37,345 nucleotides of DNA from Gallionellaceae bacterium (GTDB taxonomy: Bacteria; Pseudomonadota; Gammaproteobacteria; Burkholderiales; Gallionellaceae). Below, piece after piece: positions 11,842 to 37,345 of the stretch (positions within the stretch are counted from its first letter, which is position 1; each line of letters opens with the position of its first letter). The stretch spans positions 1 to 37,345 of the forward strand of contig VFLG01000010.1 of NCBI GenBank assembly GCA_009885195.1. Direction: 5' to 3'. A program made the position numbers and the translations under genes. The notes beneath the pieces are model-generated. The model was not told where the DNA came from, did not search any database, and worked only from the letters and a program-made list of their open reading frames with translations.

Positions 11842-13392
11842 CTAATCGGCTGTAGGGCGGATGAGCGTAGCGTTATCCGCCGTATGAGCGTTATCCGCCA
11901 CATGGCCGCATGAATCACCAACGTCGGAAGGCGCTACGCTTTTCCGACCTACGCGGTTGTCCTCTGTACAGCACTGCACCACCCGCTCCATATGCATGAA
12001 ACGTGAACCTTTCACCAGCACGGTACTGTCCGCATCCAGATGCTGGTCGAGCGTGGCGAGCAAATCTTCGATCCGCTCAAAGTGCCGCGCACCCGGACCG
12101 AATTCATGCACCGCATAGGGTGTTAATTCTCCCAGCGCCAGCAACTCGGTCACCCCCAGGTGACAGGCTTCCGCCCCGGCTTCGCCATGCAGGCGTACCG
12201 CGTCTTCTCCCAGTTCGCCCATGTCGCCCAGCACCAGGATTTTTTTTCCGCTGCTTTGCGCCAGCACCTTGAGCGCGGCGCGCAGCGAGGTGGGGTTGGC
12301 GTTGTAGCTGTCGTCTATCAGCACCGCGCCATGCAGCGCCCCCTTGCGCTGCATGCGGCCGGCCGTGCCGCAATAATTTTCCAGCCCCGCAGCGATGGCA
12401 GGCAACGTCACGTGCAGCGCCAGCGCCGCCGCAGTCGCGGCCAGCGCATTGCGCACGTTATGCGCGCCCGGCACCTGCAACTGCGCGTTAAAGCTGCCTT
12501 GCGGAGTGCTCACCGCAATATGTGCGCCATAGCCTTTGGTTTGCCATTGCGCATGTACCGCCACATTTTTTTCCAAGCCAAATTCGATGATTGGGTGTTT
12601 GCCCGCCAGCTCCCTCCACAGCGGCGCATACAGATCATCCGCATTGATCACCGCGCAGCCTTGCGGCGACAGTCCGGTAAAAATTTCGCCCTTGGCGTGC
12701 GCCACCGCCTCCACCGATCCGAGCCCCGCCAGATGCGCGCTGCCCGCATTGTTGATGACGGTCACATCCGGGCGCGTTAGCCGGGTCAAGTAATCGATTT
12801 CGCCGGAATGGTTCATGCCCATCTCGATCACCGCGTAGCGATGAAAAGCGCGCAACTTGAGCAAGGTGAGCGGCAAGCCGATATCGTTGTTGAGATTGCC
12901 AACCGTGGCCAGCACTGCGTTGGCGCTGCCCGCTGCCGCGCGCAAGATGCTGGCCAACATCTCCTTCACCGTGGTCTTGCCGTTGCTGCCGGTTACCGCC
13001 ACTATTGGAATAGCGAACTGGGAGCGCCAATGCGCCGCCAGCCGCCCCAGCGCGAGGCGGGTGTCTTCTACTACCAGAAGACTGAGGACTGAGGACTGAG
13101 GACTGAGCGGCTCTGCCGCGCCTTTATTGAAAGATTGCCGCGCAGCGGCAACAAAACCTCTGTCTTCTGTCTTCTGTCTTCTGTCCTCTGATTCACCCAC
13201 CAGCGCCGCGACCGCACCGCCTTGCGCGGCGTCGGCGACAAATGCTGCGCCGTCATAGTTCGGCCCTTGCAGCGCGACAAACAGATCGCCTGCCGTGATC
13301 GCGCGGCTGTCGCTGGACACGGCGCTGAACCTGACATCTTGGCCGATAAGTTTTCCGCCCAATATTTGCGCGGCTTGCGACAACAGCATCAT
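11842..13392 (-). CDS. murF: UDP-MurNAc-tripeptide--D-Ala-D-Ala ligase MurF, with two repeat-derived segments
   Basis: MurF adds D-Ala-D-Ala, finishing the pentapeptide precursor. The N-terminal domain, P-loop TGSNGKTT (134-141), [18 protein letters not shown] and the C-terminal VLGDMGELG and [14 protein letters not shown] motifs are all present. At 516 residues it is clearly longer than usual (about 450-460). Two additions explain this. Residues 68-106 ([11 protein letters not shown] and SPQSSVLSL) come from a 115-bp inverted heptamer element in the linker before the ATPase domain. Residues about 481-514, after the normal end near MERVV, come from two REP-like hairpins read through before the stop. 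The start at ATG 13392 overlaps the murE stop (ATGA); the longer frame to 13539 is murE shadow. Confidence 0.97.
11852..11952. repeat. Pair of REP-like hairpins forming the 3' end of murF
   Basis: Hairpin 1 (11852-11881): GTAG foot, stem GGCGGAT/ATCCGCC, loop GAGCGTAGCGTT. A partial repeat of its right half (GAGCGTTATCCGCC) follows at 11886-11899. Hairpin 2 (11923-11952) is inverted: on the minus strand it has a GTAG foot, stem GTCGGAA/TTCCGAC and loop AAGCGTAGCGCC. The stems differ but both keep GCGTAGCG in the loop and GTAG at the foot. Confidence 0.75.
13077..13191. repeat. Inverted heptamer element inside murF
   Basis: The left array 13077-13107 has units GAAGACT and three GAGGACT. The right array 13157-13191 has CCTCTGT, three CTTCTGT and CCTCTGA. 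Between them lies the dyad TTGCCGC-GCA-GCGGCAA (13135-13151) followed by CAAAAC. The murF frame stays open. Its architecture and the CCTCTGTCTTCTGTC junction match the murE element at 14904-15006. Confidence 0.75.
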
Positions 13393-15014
13393 GCTTCGGC
13401 ACCCCGCATGTCCTGAGCGCGCCACGCTTGCAGCGCGCGCTGCGCGTGTTCGGCATCGCTGAACGGATATTTCACGCCGCCGATTTCCTGATAGGTTTCG
13501 TGGCCTTTGCCCGCTACCAGCACGGTGTCCGCCGCACATGCGCCGCCTACCGCTTGCGCGATGGCTAGCTCCCGGCCTTCAATAATCTGGAACTGCCCGC
13601 CGCTCATACCGGACACAATGTCGTCAATAATGTCGCCCGGCGTTTCGCTGCGCGGATTGTCGCTGGTGACGATGCACAGGTCCGCCCATTTCGCTGCGAT
13701 CGTGCCCATCATCGGGCGTTTGCCGCGGTCGCGGTCGCCGCCGCAGCCGAACACGCAAATCACTTTCCCGCCGCTCGCGCCGGCCACTTCTTGCAAGGCC
13801 TGCAACACTTTATCCAGCGCATCGGGTGTATGCGCATAATCCACCACCACCGACGGGCGTCCGTCACCACCAAAGACCTGCATGCGCCCGGGCACCGCGC
13901 TTACCTGTGACAGTTGGCGCAAGGCATCGCTTAGCGTCACGCCGCTCACCAACAACACCGCCAGCACTCCCAGCAAGTTGGCGGCATTGAAGCGTCCTAG
14001 CAGCGCACTGTGCAATTCGCCACCACCCCAGCTGGAATGCACTTGCAGAGTTAACCCCTGCGCATCCATGCGCAGTGCGCCGCCATACACCATGCGCAAA
14101 CCGAAGCGTTCGGCTAGCTCCAGTGCGGCATCGCTCAGTCCGTAACCTACCACTTCCACATTGCTGTCCTGCTGCGGAAGGGTGGCGGCAGAGCCGCCGG
14201 GACCCCACCGGTGTACCTCTTGCAGGTGCAACCGATCGGCCAGTTCGACTCCGAACATATCGTCCAGATTAAGTACTGCAAATTTAAGTTGTTGCCAGTC
14301 GAACAAGCGCTGCTTGGCCGCCGCATAGCTGCGCATGTCGCCGTGATAGTCGAGATGGTCGCGGCTGAGATTGGTGAGCAGCGCCACGTCGAATTTCATG
14401 CCATTCACCCGCCCCTGTTGCAAGGCATGTGAGGACACTTCCATCACCACCGCCCGCGCGTCCTGCGCCAGATAATCAGCCAGCAAGCCATGCACTTGAA
14501 TCGCATCGGGAGTGGTGTTCAGAGTGGGATGCAGCGCGCCGGGAAAACCGTTGCCCAAGGTCCCGATCAGCGCTGTCTTTCTGCCCAGACCGCCCAGCGC
14601 ATGGGCAACCCAGTGGGCGCACGAGGTCTTGCCGTTGGTGCCGGTGATGCCCACCACCCACAATTTTTTTGAGGGGCTGCCATAGACATAGTCGGCAATT
14701 TCCCCGGCGTGATGGCGCAAATCGGTAACGGCCAGATTGGGTAATTGCCAGGTCTCGTTCCAACTGAAGTTATGCGCTTCCCAGATCACCGCATTGGCGC
14801 CGTTGGCGATGGCCTGGCCAATGAACTGGCGTCCATCCGCCTGGCTGCCGGGATAGGCGACAAAGGTGTCGCCCGGCGCCACCATGCGGCTGTCGGTCTT
14901 GACGGAGGACAGAAGACGGAGGACAGAAGACGGGTCGGGTACGCCAAGAACGCGGCACAGCCGCGACAACGCCTCTGTCTTCTGTCCTCCGTCCTCTGTC
15001 CTCTGACCCCTCAT
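13389..15014 (-). CDS. murE: UDP-MurNAc-L-Ala-D-Glu--meso-diaminopimelate ligase MurE, with N-terminal repeat insertion
   Basis: MurE adds the third stem-peptide residue. The DNPR motif (in SDNPRSETPGDI) marks the meso-diaminopimelate enzyme typical of Gram-negatives. Other motifs: TDSR (40-43), GDTFVAYPG, P-loop TGTNGKT (124-130), EVSSHALQQGRV, LTNLSRDHLDYH and VVDYAHTPDAL. The product is 541 residues. The ATG at 15014 overlaps the ftsI stop (ATGA) and has GGAAG upstream, so the ancestral start seems retained, but residues 3-37 are encoded by a 103-bp inverted heptamer element (QRTEDGGQKTE and SSVLRLLSS). The real fold begins near VKTDSR. Whether any of the original first residues survive in the middle (LSRLCRVLGV) is unclear. 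Confidence 0.97.
   Translation of the reverse strand: MRGQRTEDGGQKTEALSRLCRVLGVPDPSSVLRLLSSVKTDSRMVAPGDTFVAYPGSQADGRQFIGQAIANGANAVIWEAHNFSWNETWQLPNLAVTDLRHHAGEIADYVYGSPSKKLWVVGITGTNGKTSCAHWVAHALGGLGRKTALIGTLGNGFPGALHPTLNTTPDAIQVHGLLADYLAQDARAVVMEVSSHALQQGRVNGMKFDVALLTNLSRDHLDYHGDMRSYAAAKQRLFDWQQLKFAVLNLDDMFGVELADRLHLQEVHRWGPGGSAATLPQQDSNVEVVGYGLSDAALELAERFGLRMVYGGALRMDAQGLTLQVHSSWGGGELHSALLGRFNAANLLGVLAVLLVSGVTLSDALRQLSQVSAVPGRMQVFGGDGRPSVVVDYAHTPDALDKVLQALQEVAGASGGKVICVFGCGGDRDRGKRPMMGTIAAKWADLCIVTSDNPRSETPGDIIDDIVSGMSGGQFQIIEGRELAIAQAVGGACAADTVLVAGKGHETYQEIGGVKYPFSDAEHAQRALQAWRAQDMRGAEA
14904..15006. repeat. Inverted heptamer element at the start of murE
   Basis: The left array 14904-14931 alternates GGAGGAC and AGAAGAC; the right array 14972-15006 is CCTCTGT, CTTCTGT, CCTCCGT, CCTCTGT, CCTCTGA. 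The arms pair over about 27 bp with one mismatch. The centre carries the dyad CGCGG-CACAG-CCGCG (14951-14965) followed by ACAACG. It begins only a few bases after the murE ATG and keeps the frame. Confidence 0.8.
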
Positions 15015-20131: not shown

Positions 20132-20157
20132 CTCCGGTTCCTGCAAGCAGCGGTGAC

Positions 20158-20240
20158 GTAGCCCGGATGGAGCGTAGCGGAATCCAGGGTTGGTGGGCGT
20201 GGCCGAAGCCCCGGATTCCATTGCATTCCATCCGGGCTAC
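20158..20240. repeat. Inverted pair of REP-like hairpins between the CNNM gene and pilC
   Basis: Left unit 20158-20189: GTAG foot, CCCGGAT stem, loop with GAGCGTAGCGG, then AATCCAGGG. Right unit 20209-20240 is inverted and reads from the minus strand as GTAG, CCCGGATGGAATGCAATGG, AATCCGGGG. The pair is flanked by an 11-bp direct repeat CTGCAAGCAGC (20141-20151 and 20246-20256). This type (GTAGCCCGGATG...) is one I recognise as common in proteobacterial genomes. Confidence 0.75.
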
Positions 20241-20368
20241 GCTCGCTGCAAGCAGCAGAATATCGGAGTAAACGCCGATTTACAAAGCCCGCAAAGCACG
20301 GCATGATGCATGCGGGCAAAGTGAACCAGGGTGGTCGCCAGCAACGAATCGTCAATAAGGGGCATACA

Positions 20369-21592
20369 ATGGCAGTGGAAAGCAAAGTCAAAAAGCCAGA
20401 TGAACCCCGGTTTCTCTGGGAAGGCAAGGACAAAACCGGCAAGCTGGCAAAAGGCGAGATACGCGCCGCCAGCGAAGCCATCGCTTCCACCCTGTTGCGT
20501 CGCCAGGGCATCAGCATTACCAAGATCAAGAAGGTCAGCACCAGCGGCGGCAAAAAAATTACCGACAAGGATCTCGCCCTATTTACGCGCCAGCTCGCGG
20601 TCATGATGAAATCCGGCGTGCCGCTTCTGCAAGCATTCGACATCGTCGGCAAGGGGCACAACAACCCTTCTGTTTCCAAACTGCTGAACGACATCAAGAC
20701 CGACGTGGAAACCGGCAGCAGCCTGGAGCAGGCATTCCGGAAATTCCCGCTGTACTTTGACAATTTGTTTTGCAACCTGGTCGGCGCCGGAGAAGCAGCC
20801 GGTATCCTGGATAGCCTGTTGGAGCGCCTGGCATCCTATCAGGAAAAAACGCTGGCCATCAAGAGCAAGATAAAGGGGGCGTTGATGTACCCGGTTTCCA
20901 TCATCGCCGTTGCCTTCATCATCACCGCCGTCATCATGATTTTCGTGGTTCCCGCGTTCAAGGAGTTGTTCTCCAGTTTTGGCGCCGACTTACCCGGACC
21001 CACTCTCGTTTTGATGAGCATCTCCGATTTCTTTGTCGCGTATTGGTGGGCCATTTTCAGTGCAATAGGCGGCGGGCTTTACGCCTTTTTCTATTTCTGG
21101 AAACGCAACAAAAAGGTGCAGGATGTCATGGACAGAGTGATGCTCAAACTGCCGATTTTCGGCTCCGTCATTCGCAAGGCCTCCATCGCGCGCTGGGCCC
21201 GCACTTTGTCCACGATGTTTGCCGCCGGTGTGCCGCTGGTGGATGCGCTTACCTCGGTAGCGGGCGCGGCCGGAAATGTGGTGTATTTTGATGCGACCAA
21301 GGCCATCCAGAGGGAGGTCACTCAAGGCGGCACACTGACCTCAGCCATGGAAAATACCAAGGTATTCCCCAGCATGGTGCTGCAAATGGTCGCGATTGGC
21401 GAAGAGGCAGGTTCACTGGATGGGATGTTAAACAAGGTTGCGGATTTTTTCGAGGGCGAGGTGGATGACGCAGTGGCCGCATTGGCCAGCCTGATGGAAC
21501 CTATCATCATGGTGGTGCTGGGCACGCTCATCGGCAGCATGGTGGTAGCGATGTACTTGCCTATTTTCAAGATGGGGGCAGTTGTTAGCTAA
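20369..21592 (+). CDS. pilC: Type IV pilus inner-membrane platform protein PilC
   Basis: PilC is the polytopic base of the type IV pilus machine and couples the PilB/PilT ATPases to pilin assembly and retraction. From ATG 20369 (AAGGGG upstream) the protein has 407 residues, the usual length. It contains the two T2SSF domains (about 70-195 and 275-398), with hallmark FTRQLAVMMKSGVPLLQAFDIV, the GAGEAAGILDSLLERLA block and its second-domain echo AIGEEAGSLDGMLNKVADFFE, and three membrane spans. The longer frame from 20303 lacks homology character. pilB, its usual upstream neighbour, is not in the window. An element inserted directly after the stop separates it from pilD. Confidence 0.97.
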   Translation: MAVESKVKKPDEPRFLWEGKDKTGKLAKGEIRAASEAIASTLLRRQGISITKIKKVSTSGGKKITDKDLALFTRQLAVMMKSGVPLLQAFDIVGKGHNNPSVSKLLNDIKTDVETGSSLEQAFRKFPLYFDNLFCNLVGAGEAAGILDSLLERLASYQEKTLAIKSKIKGALMYPVSIIAVAFIITAVIMIFVVPAFKELFSSFGADLPGPTLVLMSISDFFVAYWWAIFSAIGGGLYAFFYFWKRNKKVQDVMDRVMLKLPIFGSVIRKASIARWARTLSTMFAAGVPLVDALTSVAGAAGNVVYFDATKAIQREVTQGGTLTSAMENTKVFPSMVLQMVAIGEEAGSLDGMLNKVADFFEGEVDDAVAALASLMEPIIMVVLGTLIGSMVVAMYLPIFKMGAVVS

Positions 21593-21779
21593 GGGCATCT
21601 CTAAAAATCCAGATTTCATCCCAACTGCCGCGTTGCGTAAAAAATTTCTTGCTTACATATCATCACATATGCGGCGCTGCAAAACGAAGTTTCAGAGTAG
21701 GCTTACCTTTAGGTTAGCCGGAACTAAAATTTTTTCCGCGCCTTGCATTTGGGCGAACTCTGAATTTTTAGAAACGCCC
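21593..21779. mobile_element. MITE-like element, copy 1 (pilC/pilD gap)
   Basis: The ends are 21-bp inverted repeats (21593-21613 and 21759-21779, 18 of 21 matching), starting GGGCATCTCTAAAAATCC. A 4-bp direct repeat CTAA lies immediately outside both ends (21589-21592, including the pilC stop, and 21780-21783). Read on the minus strand it has the family core: CAAGGCGCGG, A-tract, GCATATG...TATGTAAGCA, T-tract, CAACGCGGCAG. It carries about 46 bp more than copy 6, including a small palindrome around GGCTAACCTAAAGGTAAGCC. Confidence 0.75.
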
Positions 21780-35275: not shown

Positions 35276-35307
35276 GTCTCGATCAATCCCAATAAAATCA
35301 TGCGCGT

Positions 35308-35337
35308 ACTTTACCACAGCCATGCCATTTAGCTCAA
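35308..35337 (-). promoter_or_regulatory. Possible lpxC promoter
   Basis: Minus-strand TTGAGC (35332-35337) and TAAAGT (35308-35313) are 18 bp apart, giving a start about 26 bp before the ATG. A moderate match only. Confidence 0.35.
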
Positions 35338-35355
35338 ACGGGCGTAGTGGCTTTA

Positions 35356-35426
35356 GGGCATCTCTATAAATCCAAACTCCGTCGCGATACTGCGTTGCTC
35401 AAGATTTTGAATTTATAGAAACGCCC
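35356..35426. mobile_element. MITE-like element, copy 5 (algR/lpxC gap, short form)
   Basis: 21-bp inverted ends (35356-35376 and 35406-35426; 18 of 21 match), GGGCATCTCTATAAATCC type. Only part of the core remains: on the minus strand GAGCAACGCAGTATCGCGAC, nearly identical to copy 6 (GTATGGCGAC there). The flanks are TTTA and TTTG, a possible eroded 4-bp duplication. At 71 bp it looks like an internal deletion form. Confidence 0.7.
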
Positions 35427-35440
35427 TTTGCAACACCCCG

Positions 35441-36205
35441 CTAAGCAAATTCCTTCACTATGAATTGCTGCCTGCGGCTGATCGCCAGTTTCTCCTCCAA
35501 ACCCTTGAGCCTGACCGCCCAGTGCGTCTCACCGCCTTCATCATCGGCGACTTTTTCAAAACCCGCAATCTGCTCTTTTGCCACCAGGCAATTGCGGTGG
35601 ATGCGCACGAAGCGTGACGCGAACTCTTTTTCCAGCGCCGCCAGCGCTTCTTCAATCAGATACTCACGCTGAGCGGTGCGCACCGTGATGTATTTCAATT
35701 CGGCGCGCAGGTAAAGCACCTCCTCAATCGGGATCAGGTAAATCTTGCCGCGTTCATGCACAGATAAATTCTTGCGTGGTTCGGTGAGAATGCTCTGCAA
35801 CTCTTCGGTGCGCATCGGCACGGCAGTGCGCGCGCGCACCAGCGCATCAAACAAGCGCCTGAGGCGGATGGGTTTAAGCAAGTAGTCAACGGCATGCAGT
35901 TCAAAGGCCTTGATGGCATAAGCGTCAAAGGCGGTGGTGAAGATAATGATCGGTGGATGGGGCAGTTTGTTGAGGTGTTGCGCCAGCTCGATGCCGTCCA
36001 TTTGCGGCATACGAATATCTACCAGCACCACATCGGCGCGGGTTGCTGATAATTTATCCAGCGCCTCCCGCCCGTTGCCCGCTTCGCCCACCATTTCCAG
36101 CGGCAATTGTCCGGCGCAATCGGTGAGCAGATCCTTCAGGCGATTGCGGGCGGGCGGCTCGTCGTCCACCACGAACACGGCCAGGGGGAGTTCAACAACG
36201 CTCAT
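35441..36205 (-). CDS. LytTR-family response regulator (AlgR-type)
   Basis: 254 residues: receiver domain (about 10-125) with acidic pair D14-D15, phospho-acceptor D63 (LVDIRMPQMDG) and K111 (LLKP), then a LytTR DNA-binding domain (about 150-250; IPIEEVLYLRAELKYITVRT, FVRIHRNCLVAKEQIAGFEK). Such regulators act with LytS/AlgZ-type kinases; in Pseudomonas AlgR controls alginate and type IV pili, but targets here are unknown. I start at ATG 36205. Its ribosome site (AGAGG) comes from the inverted end of MITE copy 6, which fills the whole gap to the kinase gene. Confidence 0.92.
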   Translation of the reverse strand: MSVVELPLAVFVVDDEPPARNRLKDLLTDCAGQLPLEMVGEAGNGREALDKLSATRADVVLVDIRMPQMDGIELAQHLNKLPHPPIIIFTTAFDAYAIKAFELHAVDYLLKPIRLRRLFDALVRARTAVPMRTEELQSILTEPRKNLSVHERGKIYLIPIEEVLYLRAELKYITVRTAQREYLIEEALAALEKEFASRFVRIHRNCLVAKEQIAGFEKVADDEGGETHWAVRLKGLEEKLAISRRQQFIVKEFA

Positions 36206-36346
36206 GGGCACCTCTAAAAATTCAAGTTTCTAAGCCAGACAAGGCGCGAGCAAAAAATTGCGACGCGGCATATGCTTTATATGTAAGGAGTAATTTTTTG
36301 TGAGCAACGCAGTATGGCGACGAAAATTGGATTTTTAGAGATGCCC
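36206..36346. mobile_element. MITE-like element, copy 6 (kinase/regulator junction)
   Basis: 20-bp inverted ends (36206-36225 and 36327-36346; 18 of 20 match; GGGCACCTCTAAAAATTC type) with the full core: CAAGGCGCGAG, A-tract, GCATATGCTTTATATGTAAGGAG, T-tract, GAGCAACGCAGTATGG. TCAT lies directly outside both ends (36202-36205 and 36347-36350). The element is exactly the intergenic space between the kinase TGA and the regulator ATG. Confidence 0.8.
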
Positions 36347-37345
36347 TCATTTCTTTTCCTCCCGCATATAAGGCAACGTGATGTGCACGTGATAAAAATC
36401 CTTGCCGGTTTCCACGGTGTACTGCGCTTCCACATCAAATTGCAGAGCCAGGCGTTGGCGGATATTGCTCAGTGCCATTTTGTTGCCGTCATGCCGGTCG
36501 TTTTGTGCCTGGCGCGGATTGCGCACGTCAAGATGAATTTCATTGGTATTGCGATACAGCTTTATGTCTATTTCTCCGCCTGCGGTGAGCGGCTCGATGC
36601 CGTGGTACACGGCATTCTCCAGCAGCGGCTGCAAGATCAGCGGCGGCATCAGCGCATCATCCGGCAAGTCCTGCACTTGCCAGTTCACCTTGAGGCGCTC
36701 GCCCAGACGCAATTGTTCCAGCGCGAGATATTGGCGCGCAAATTCTACCTCTTTAAGCACAGCAACCTGATCCCCGTTCTGCGCCATCGCCATGCGGAAC
36801 AGGTCGGCCATGTCCTCCAGCGCGGTTTCGGCGCGCTTGGGATCGGCGCGCACAATACCAAGCACGGCATTAATGGTATTGAACAAGAAGTGCGGGCGGA
36901 TGCGCGCCTGCAAAGCCTGCAAGCGCGCCTCATGCAGGGATGGGGAAAGCACTTGGGCGCGCAGCCTGAAATAAGCCAGCAGCACGGCAGCAATAACACC
37001 GGCTACCAGAGCCGTGCGCAACGAGTGGAAATACCCGTGCTCCGCCGTTGAACCATACAGCTCGCCACCAAATTGGTAAACCACCAGCGTATTGACCATG
37101 ACCAATAACAGCACTGCGCCGCCACCCTGCCCATAGCTCAACCGCGCTAACCACGGATTAAACAGGTACAGCAGCAACAAATTTAGCAACAAGGACGGCT
37201 GCAGCAGAGCCGACAGGTCGATCATGTTCTGTGCCAAATCCTGCCAGGACACCGCCTTTGCAGCGACAGCCAGCAACACCATGCCATTGACCAGCAGCAG
37301 GCTGCGCAAAGCCACGCCCAGGTTGCGAAAATTGGGTAACGCATC
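36347..37345 (-). CDS. LytS/AlgZ-type sensor histidine kinase (5' end outside window)
   Basis: The frame is open to the right edge (333 codons visible, DALPNFRNLGVALRS at the edge), so the true start is beyond 37345 and the GTG at 37315 is probably internal. Four to five hydrophobic spans occupy the first part. The His_kinase domain follows with RPHFLFNTINAVL (phospho-acceptor histidine), and a HATPase with the N-box QPLLENAVYHGIEP. The usual GxGxGL loop is reduced (GNKMALSNIRQRL). It precedes the AlgR-type gene; the partnership is clear from order, the signal is unknown. Confidence 0.9.
   Translation of the reverse strand, partial: DALPNFRNLGVALRSLLLVNGMVLLAVAAKAVSWQDLAQNMIDLSALLQPSLLLNLLLLYLFNPWLARLSYGQGGGAVLLLVMVNTLVVYQFGGELYGSTAEHGYFHSLRTALVAGVIAAVLLAYFRLRAQVLSPSLHEARLQALQARIRPHFLFNTINAVLGIVRADPKRAETALEDMADLFRMAMAQNGDQVAVLKEVEFARQYLALEQLRLGERLKVNWQVQDLPDDALMPPLILQPLLENAVYHGIEPLTAGGEIDIKLYRNTNEIHLDVRNPRQAQNDRHDGNKMALSNIRQRLALQFDVEAQYTVETGKDFYHVHITLPYMREEKK

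Follow-up and report, generated by a model that had tools for sequence, protein, structure and literature searches.

In the 37,345-nucleotide stretch of Gallionellaceae DNA analysed here (the window), a histidine kinase gene and the response regulator gene downstream of it are separated by a 141-bp inverted-repeat element, and the best explanation of this arrangement, to which we give a probability of about 85%, is that an IS5-family-derived MITE inserted in the ATGA overlap of the two genes and left both intact. This history, read from sequence, is strongly supported. A non-autonomous element would have entered the 4-bp ATGA overlap of the kinase-regulator pair, and the 4-bp target duplication would have copied the overlap; since the overlap was duplicated, one copy would now serve as the kinase stop and the other as the regulator start. 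That stop, start and both reading frames are preserved is seen directly in the sequence and in comparison with relatives.

Table 1. Features at and around the kinase-regulator junction.
Feature	Position	Strand	Basis
72-bp internally deleted copy of the 141-bp element, between regulator and lpxC	35356..35427		part matched by BLAST, rest read by eye
LytTR response regulator gene, 254 aa	35441..36205	-	frame and domain matches
TCAT, left copy of the 4-bp target duplication; minus-strand ATGA is the regulator start	36202..36205		sequence
MITE-like element, 141 bp, inverted-repeat ends GGGCACCTCTAAAAATT / GATTTTTAGAGATGCCC	36206..36346		direct sequence reading; 42 own-genome matches
AGAGG, Shine-Dalgarno-like, 5 nt before regulator ATG, within the element's terminal repeat	36211..36215	-	sequence; putative role; predicted paired
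TCAT, right copy of the 4-bp target duplication; minus-strand ATGA is the kinase stop	36347..36350		sequence
GGAGGAA at kinase 3' end, probable pre-insertion regulator Shine-Dalgarno	36355..36361	-	sequence; putative role
His_kinase gene, 332 codons up to window edge	36347..37345	-	frame and PF06580

Anatomy of the junction

The product of the upstream gene, which we take to be AlgZ-like, matches His_kinase (PF06580, 4.8e-22), and that of the downstream gene matches Response_reg (1.4e-25) and LytTR (1.6e-18). An earlier note on this DNA had claimed that the element fills the space between the kinase TGA and the regulator ATG with TCAT outside both ends, and this can be read directly (Table 1). 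Read on the minus strand, the kinase frame has ...AAATGA (...GGGAGGAAAAGAAATGA) at its end and the regulator begins ATGAGC; removal of the element and one TCAT, as the same note proposed, restores the junction AAATGAGC, a 4-bp ATGA overlap, which in the rebuilt sequence GGGAGGAAAAGAAATGAGC is preceded by a good ribosome site. The GGAGGAA motif now lies about 141-150 nt upstream of the regulator ATG, and the regulator start instead reads AGAGG-TGCCC-ATG. The further statement that ATGA is the commonest junction in the window holds for the six 4-bp overlaps of its open reading frame list (four ATGA, two GTGA), to which the tally is limited. With the 72-bp deleted copy beyond its other end, the regulator gene lies between two elements.

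A multicopy family with 4-bp target duplications

The element has 42 BLAST matches in its own genome (a 1.37-Mb draft, 72% complete), partial ones counted and three of them in the window, and matches occur in 116 of 150 family genomes, its own included; the relatives concerned are Gallionellaceae, Gallionella, Candidatus Nitrotoga and the like. From 165 BLAST hits, 142 full-length copies remained after removal of hits in which both ends could not be recognised or whose flanks were duplicates, a set in which the closest matches to the window element and five same-genus genomes are over-represented. Exactly 141 bp was the length of 111 of these copies. Perfect flanking direct repeats were 4 bp long in 97 of the 142, 3 bp in 3 and 5 bp in 2, and repeats of 6-9 bp were found in none. 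The many own-genome matches and the 4-bp repeats across the family argue that the element at the junction is not a chance occurrence. Among the 97 duplications TTTA (22), TTAA (13), TTAT (10), TAAA (8), TTGA (7) and TCAT (5) are represented, and the target logo is C (0.49) before the duplicated bases, T (0.91), T (0.66), A/T and A (0.71) within them, and G (0.42) after them (hereafter C-TTWA-G). TCAT flanks, whose absence from other copies the earlier note named as contrary evidence, are present at a few copies, but the duplicated 4 bp varies in sequence and TCAT is a minor target.

The element is short, has terminal inverted repeats and target duplications, is multicopy and is AT-richer than its surroundings (43% G+C, against 57% for the window), as MITEs are, and at 141 bp it is too short for a transposase gene. 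Rfam gave 0 matches at gathering score within window positions 35300-36800, and blastn of the element against plasmids and phages gave no match. A partial copy, 76% identical across 90 bases, lies at 21592-21682 in the window. Relatives of about 179-335 bp with the same ends, several of them with 4-bp duplications, were seen at L240, L243-L245, L247, L248, L252, L254, L259, L261 and L264.

A likely parent in the IS5 family

Pairing of terminal repeats in complete genomes identified a 1320-bp element in genome G058 (L269, 305-1624) with terminal repeat GGGCACCTCTAAAAATT and a TTAA duplication, whose 376-codon frame matches the IS5 transposase model NCBIfam NF033581 (4.6e-85) and Pfam DDE_Tnp_1 (9.1e-27). 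A second G058 copy (L270, 341-1661) has TTAA repeats on both sides and a split transposase frame. This insertion sequence resembles the MITE in its terminal repeat and in its 4-bp duplications, TTAA at both copies, but differs in being 1.3 kb long, in carrying a transposase frame and in its interior; as printed, the ends of the two agree over only about 17-20 terminal bases. From the same ends and the same duplication length, a G058-type IS5-family insertion sequence is the likely source of the MITE's transposase. IS5 elements target YTAR-like sequences of 4 bp; the MITE logo overlaps TTAA, yet many of its duplications are TTTA, TTAT, TTGA or TCAT. A parent was also sought among longer relatives with the same left end, and these comprised only 179-335-bp variants and contig-edge fragments, without a transposase.

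State of the junction before insertion

The earlier note predicted that relatives without the element would have a plain ATGA junction. The kinase-regulator junction was examined in 58 relatives and measured in 55 (L043, L059 and L086, with no kinase match, were excluded), giving 4-bp overlaps in 38, of which 37 are ATGA, gaps of 0-30 nt in 6, longer gaps in 9 and unplaced starts in 2, with the qualification that automatic calls misplace some starts (L069, tallied as a gap, is ATGA by eye; L053 and L076 were unplaced; L290, counted as unplaced, is ATGA by eye). Where regulator identity is at least 70%, ATGA is found in 22 of 27 relatives. The ortholog is present in 16 other genomes of the window's genus: the best match, G073, has the plain ATGA junction, 13 of the 16 have gaps of 42-87 nt, and two starts were unplaced by the script, one of which is ATGA by eye. 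A FastTree tree built from the two proteins (support values not printed) groups the window with G073 and puts most of the genus's spaced junctions in one neighbouring clade, with G061 and G070 apart.

Since ATGA is found in the sister G073 and in the outgroups, an ATGA overlap is the best reading of the pre-insertion state, with the spacing seen in the Nitrotoga-like clade best read as a separate change. The prediction is thus borne out by 37 of 55 measured relatives and by the sister, and the observation that the note named as contrary to it, a non-overlapping junction in element-free relatives, was made in 13 of 16 congeners but not in the sister or the outgroups. The loci with the 42-87-nt kinase-regulator spacer of the Nitrotoga-like clade are L277-L289.

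Recurrence at other stop/start overlaps

A second copy in the same genome (L002) lies in the ATGA between RNase H and exonuclease genes (Pfam RNase_H, 4.8e-47; RNase_T, 5.3e-37), read as rnhA-dnaQ, a pair with a plain ATGA overlap in 22 of 28 measured relatives (L308, which has no RNase H, was excluded). A search across 158 genomes for copies flanked by ATGA at each end returned seven places in six genomes. Four of these are stop/start overlaps under a rule that asks for two frames of at least 80 codons each, namely the window copy (L001), L002, L338 and L339; the other three have no such overlap. Neither frame at L339 matched a Pfam family, so this overlap is called from frame length alone. 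L338, in genome G063 of another genus, is again at rnhA-dnaQ (families checked) and in the same four bases as L002. Among 17 other genomes of the G063 genus, this junction is a plain ATGA in nine, an 8-nt overlap in five Because L002 and L338 have only 73% identity in their dnaQ DNA, the two insertions are independent, neither shared nor recently transferred, although as choices of junction they are not independent, since they share one site. For background, the same rule was applied to the ATGA sites of the flanks, and it classed 31 of 2755 as overlaps, or 12 of 586 when sites within coding interiors were set aside; against these two rates, three overlaps in six places (the window copy excluded) have binomial probabilities of 2.8e-5 and 1.6e-4, respectively.

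Two further copies were observed near such junctions. L333 (G032, yet another genus) is a third rnhA-dnaQ insertion; it shares 82% identity with the window element and lies about 16 nt ahead of the dnaQ ATG, with the RNase H frame ending just before the insertion. In G016, copy L136 lies between a winged-helix-response-regulator-like frame that ends ATGA and a histidine-kinase-like frame that begins TTGA; it may be a further case of insertion in the overlap of a two-component pair, the start codon having changed.

Insertions at gene edges

Edge tests covered the 93 of 142 copies with a perfect duplication and flanks of at least 400 bp, with frames rather than curated genes standing for genes. 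The stop codon of a long frame lies in the duplication in 20 of the 93, compared with 6.7 expected from matched 6-mers at all sites and 5.6 from matched 6-mers at intergenic or edge sites (0 of 5000 draws in each case). For start codons the figures are 9 against 5.9 at all sites (532 of 5000 draws reach the observed count) and 8 of 92 against 3.1 at intergenic or edge sites (26 of 5000). A null matched on the 4-mer alone gives 3.6 or 1.8 for the 9 starts and 8.7 or 6.1 for the 20 stops; matching the flanking bases therefore leaves a weaker start-codon enrichment. The enrichment at stop codons is firm, and that at start codons is mostly the target motif. By mask, 18 of the 93 copies are inside coding frames, and 79% of the flank sequence is coding. 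The family appears to prefer C-TTWA-G-like targets, a motif similar to stop codons and to the surroundings of ATG, and copies inserted at the edges of genes may survive because nothing is broken.

Putative ribosome site and predicted hairpin

Upon insertion, the inverted end next to the regulator would have brought AGAGG to working distance, displacing the native GGAGGAA, and pairing of the two ends in the mRNA would place a long hairpin between the two cistrons, AGAGG lying in its base. Translation of the regulator would then probably be lower and may depend on a ribosome finishing the kinase. The hairpin envisaged in the earlier note is indeed predicted, the ends of the window copy pairing as a 16-bp stem. 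Its assignment of the element's end as the regulator's ribosome site agrees with the position of AGAGG, which may be the working site, but folding predictions bury it in the terminal stem: the unpaired probability of GAGG is 0.00 in all four overlap copies. With ribosome footprints modelled as simple folding constraints of our choosing, a footprint reaching 12 nt past the stop raises the predicted value to 0.34 in the window copy, 0.07 in L002, 0.02 in L338 and 0.21 in L339, and the same footprint moved 30 nt upstream leaves it at 0.00. Since a ribosome at the stop codon would raise GAGG exposure, the uncoupling suggested in the note is not the only reading, and hairpin-gated coupling is possible, the prediction being uneven among copies.

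In 44 diverse copies the full-length element folds into a single long hairpin, and some paired changes occur, both in the terminal repeats and in the interior; upkeep of the inverted repeat could explain this conservation without an RNA role. Preferential retention of GAGG at start-facing ends found no support (17 of 21, against 186 of 263 other ends; Fisher 0.45), which speaks against an adapted ribosome site. Promoter and terminator scans across the junction found none.

Discussion

Two questions are open to rival answers, the history of the junction and the role of the element in it. Regarding the first, it is highly improbable that the genes never overlapped, the spacer being ancestral and the TCAT repeats chance. 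The 42-87-nt spacers in 13 of 16 other congeners are what such a history would lead one to expect, but the element query does not match them except for a weak partial hit in L285 (E 4e-5), away from a full copy; moreover, the nearest and the outer relatives have ATGA, 4-bp duplications are general to the element family, and at rnhA-dnaQ the empty site is seen directly.

Given insertion in an ATGA overlap, we lean slightly toward the element being a passive passenger, whose motif happens to fit stop codons and ATG contexts, whose insertions are harmless and whose AGAGG and hairpin have no selected role. The C-TTWA-G logo, the absence of preferential GAGG retention at start-facing ends and the large part of the start enrichment explained by the motif are all consistent with passive carriage, and the excess of stops over 6-mer-matched sites and of overlaps over tolerated ATGA sites counts against it, although survival could explain both; GAGG is also kept on the start side in four of four overlap copies, too few to test. 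Rather unlikely, in our judgement, is a module of stop, hairpin, Shine-Dalgarno and start, in which the ribosome terminating on the kinase would melt the 5' arm and free AGAGG, so that coupling is kept in a new form. The geometry suits it, with the 5' arm abutting the stop codon and AGAGG directly preceding the start, as does the predicted opening in the window copy upon a footprint at the stop and not upstream; however, the rise is small in L002 and absent in L338. Somewhat more doubtful still is the proposal that the terminal repeat is a portable stop/start kit, in which target choice would capture stop codons and ATGA overlaps, the duplication would copy them and each end would bring AGAGG with its complement CCTCT in the other arm, such that insertion would self-repair an overlapping junction into a hairpin-gated one and the family would have spread partly by this means.

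ATGA overlaps provide translational coupling, and overlapping stop/start junctions are regarded as fixed coupling devices of operons. This is the ancestral junction type of both the kinase-regulator and rnhA-dnaQ operons, in which the element parts stop from start by 141 nt and, unlike in a plain ATGA overlap, the native ribosome site is replaced. One mobile family has opened stop/start overlaps repeatedly without breaking either protein, and G063 compared with G016 and G031 gives exact before and after pairs in nature. These amount to a natural experiment on the role of the overlap, with the same proteins in the same order and the overlap swapped for a hairpin that carries a putative ribosome site supplied by the element. 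Should that site prove functional, selfish DNA would retune stoichiometry within an operon, here a two-component system and a replication/repair pair, without a coding change.

The nearest parallels in the literature are partial. MITEAba12 is 111-114 bp long, has 9-bp duplications, carries promoters and shares only its ends with its insertion sequence, according to the relevant passages of its source (PMC6382973). On those passages it and the present element are alike in being short and non-autonomous, with terminal repeats shared with an insertion sequence, target duplications and many copies across a family (PMC6382973); the present element differs in that it is 141 bp long, makes 4-bp duplications, has a long hairpin and recurs at stop/start overlaps. 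The same passages describe gene disruption and fusion, not overlap-sparing insertion (PMC6382973). The pneumococcal BOX, RUP and SPRITE sequences are small interspersed repeats that give neighbouring genes stop codons; the stop is part of the repeat, and adducts result (PMC3049150). In the present case the target duplication leaves both stop and start unchanged. A literature search with mostly non-subscription coverage found no report of the present element or of an overlap-sparing MITE insertion.

Other repeats in the window

An inverted repeat with 33-nt arms (CGTAGCCCGGATGGAGCG...) at 20157-20241 is possibly a second repeat family. Tandem repeats of 7 (or 14) bases of the GAGGACT/GAGGACA type occur at 2863-2889, 13080-13107, 13159-13190, 14901-14933 and 14972-15005, several of them at gene ends inside a cell-wall gene cluster.
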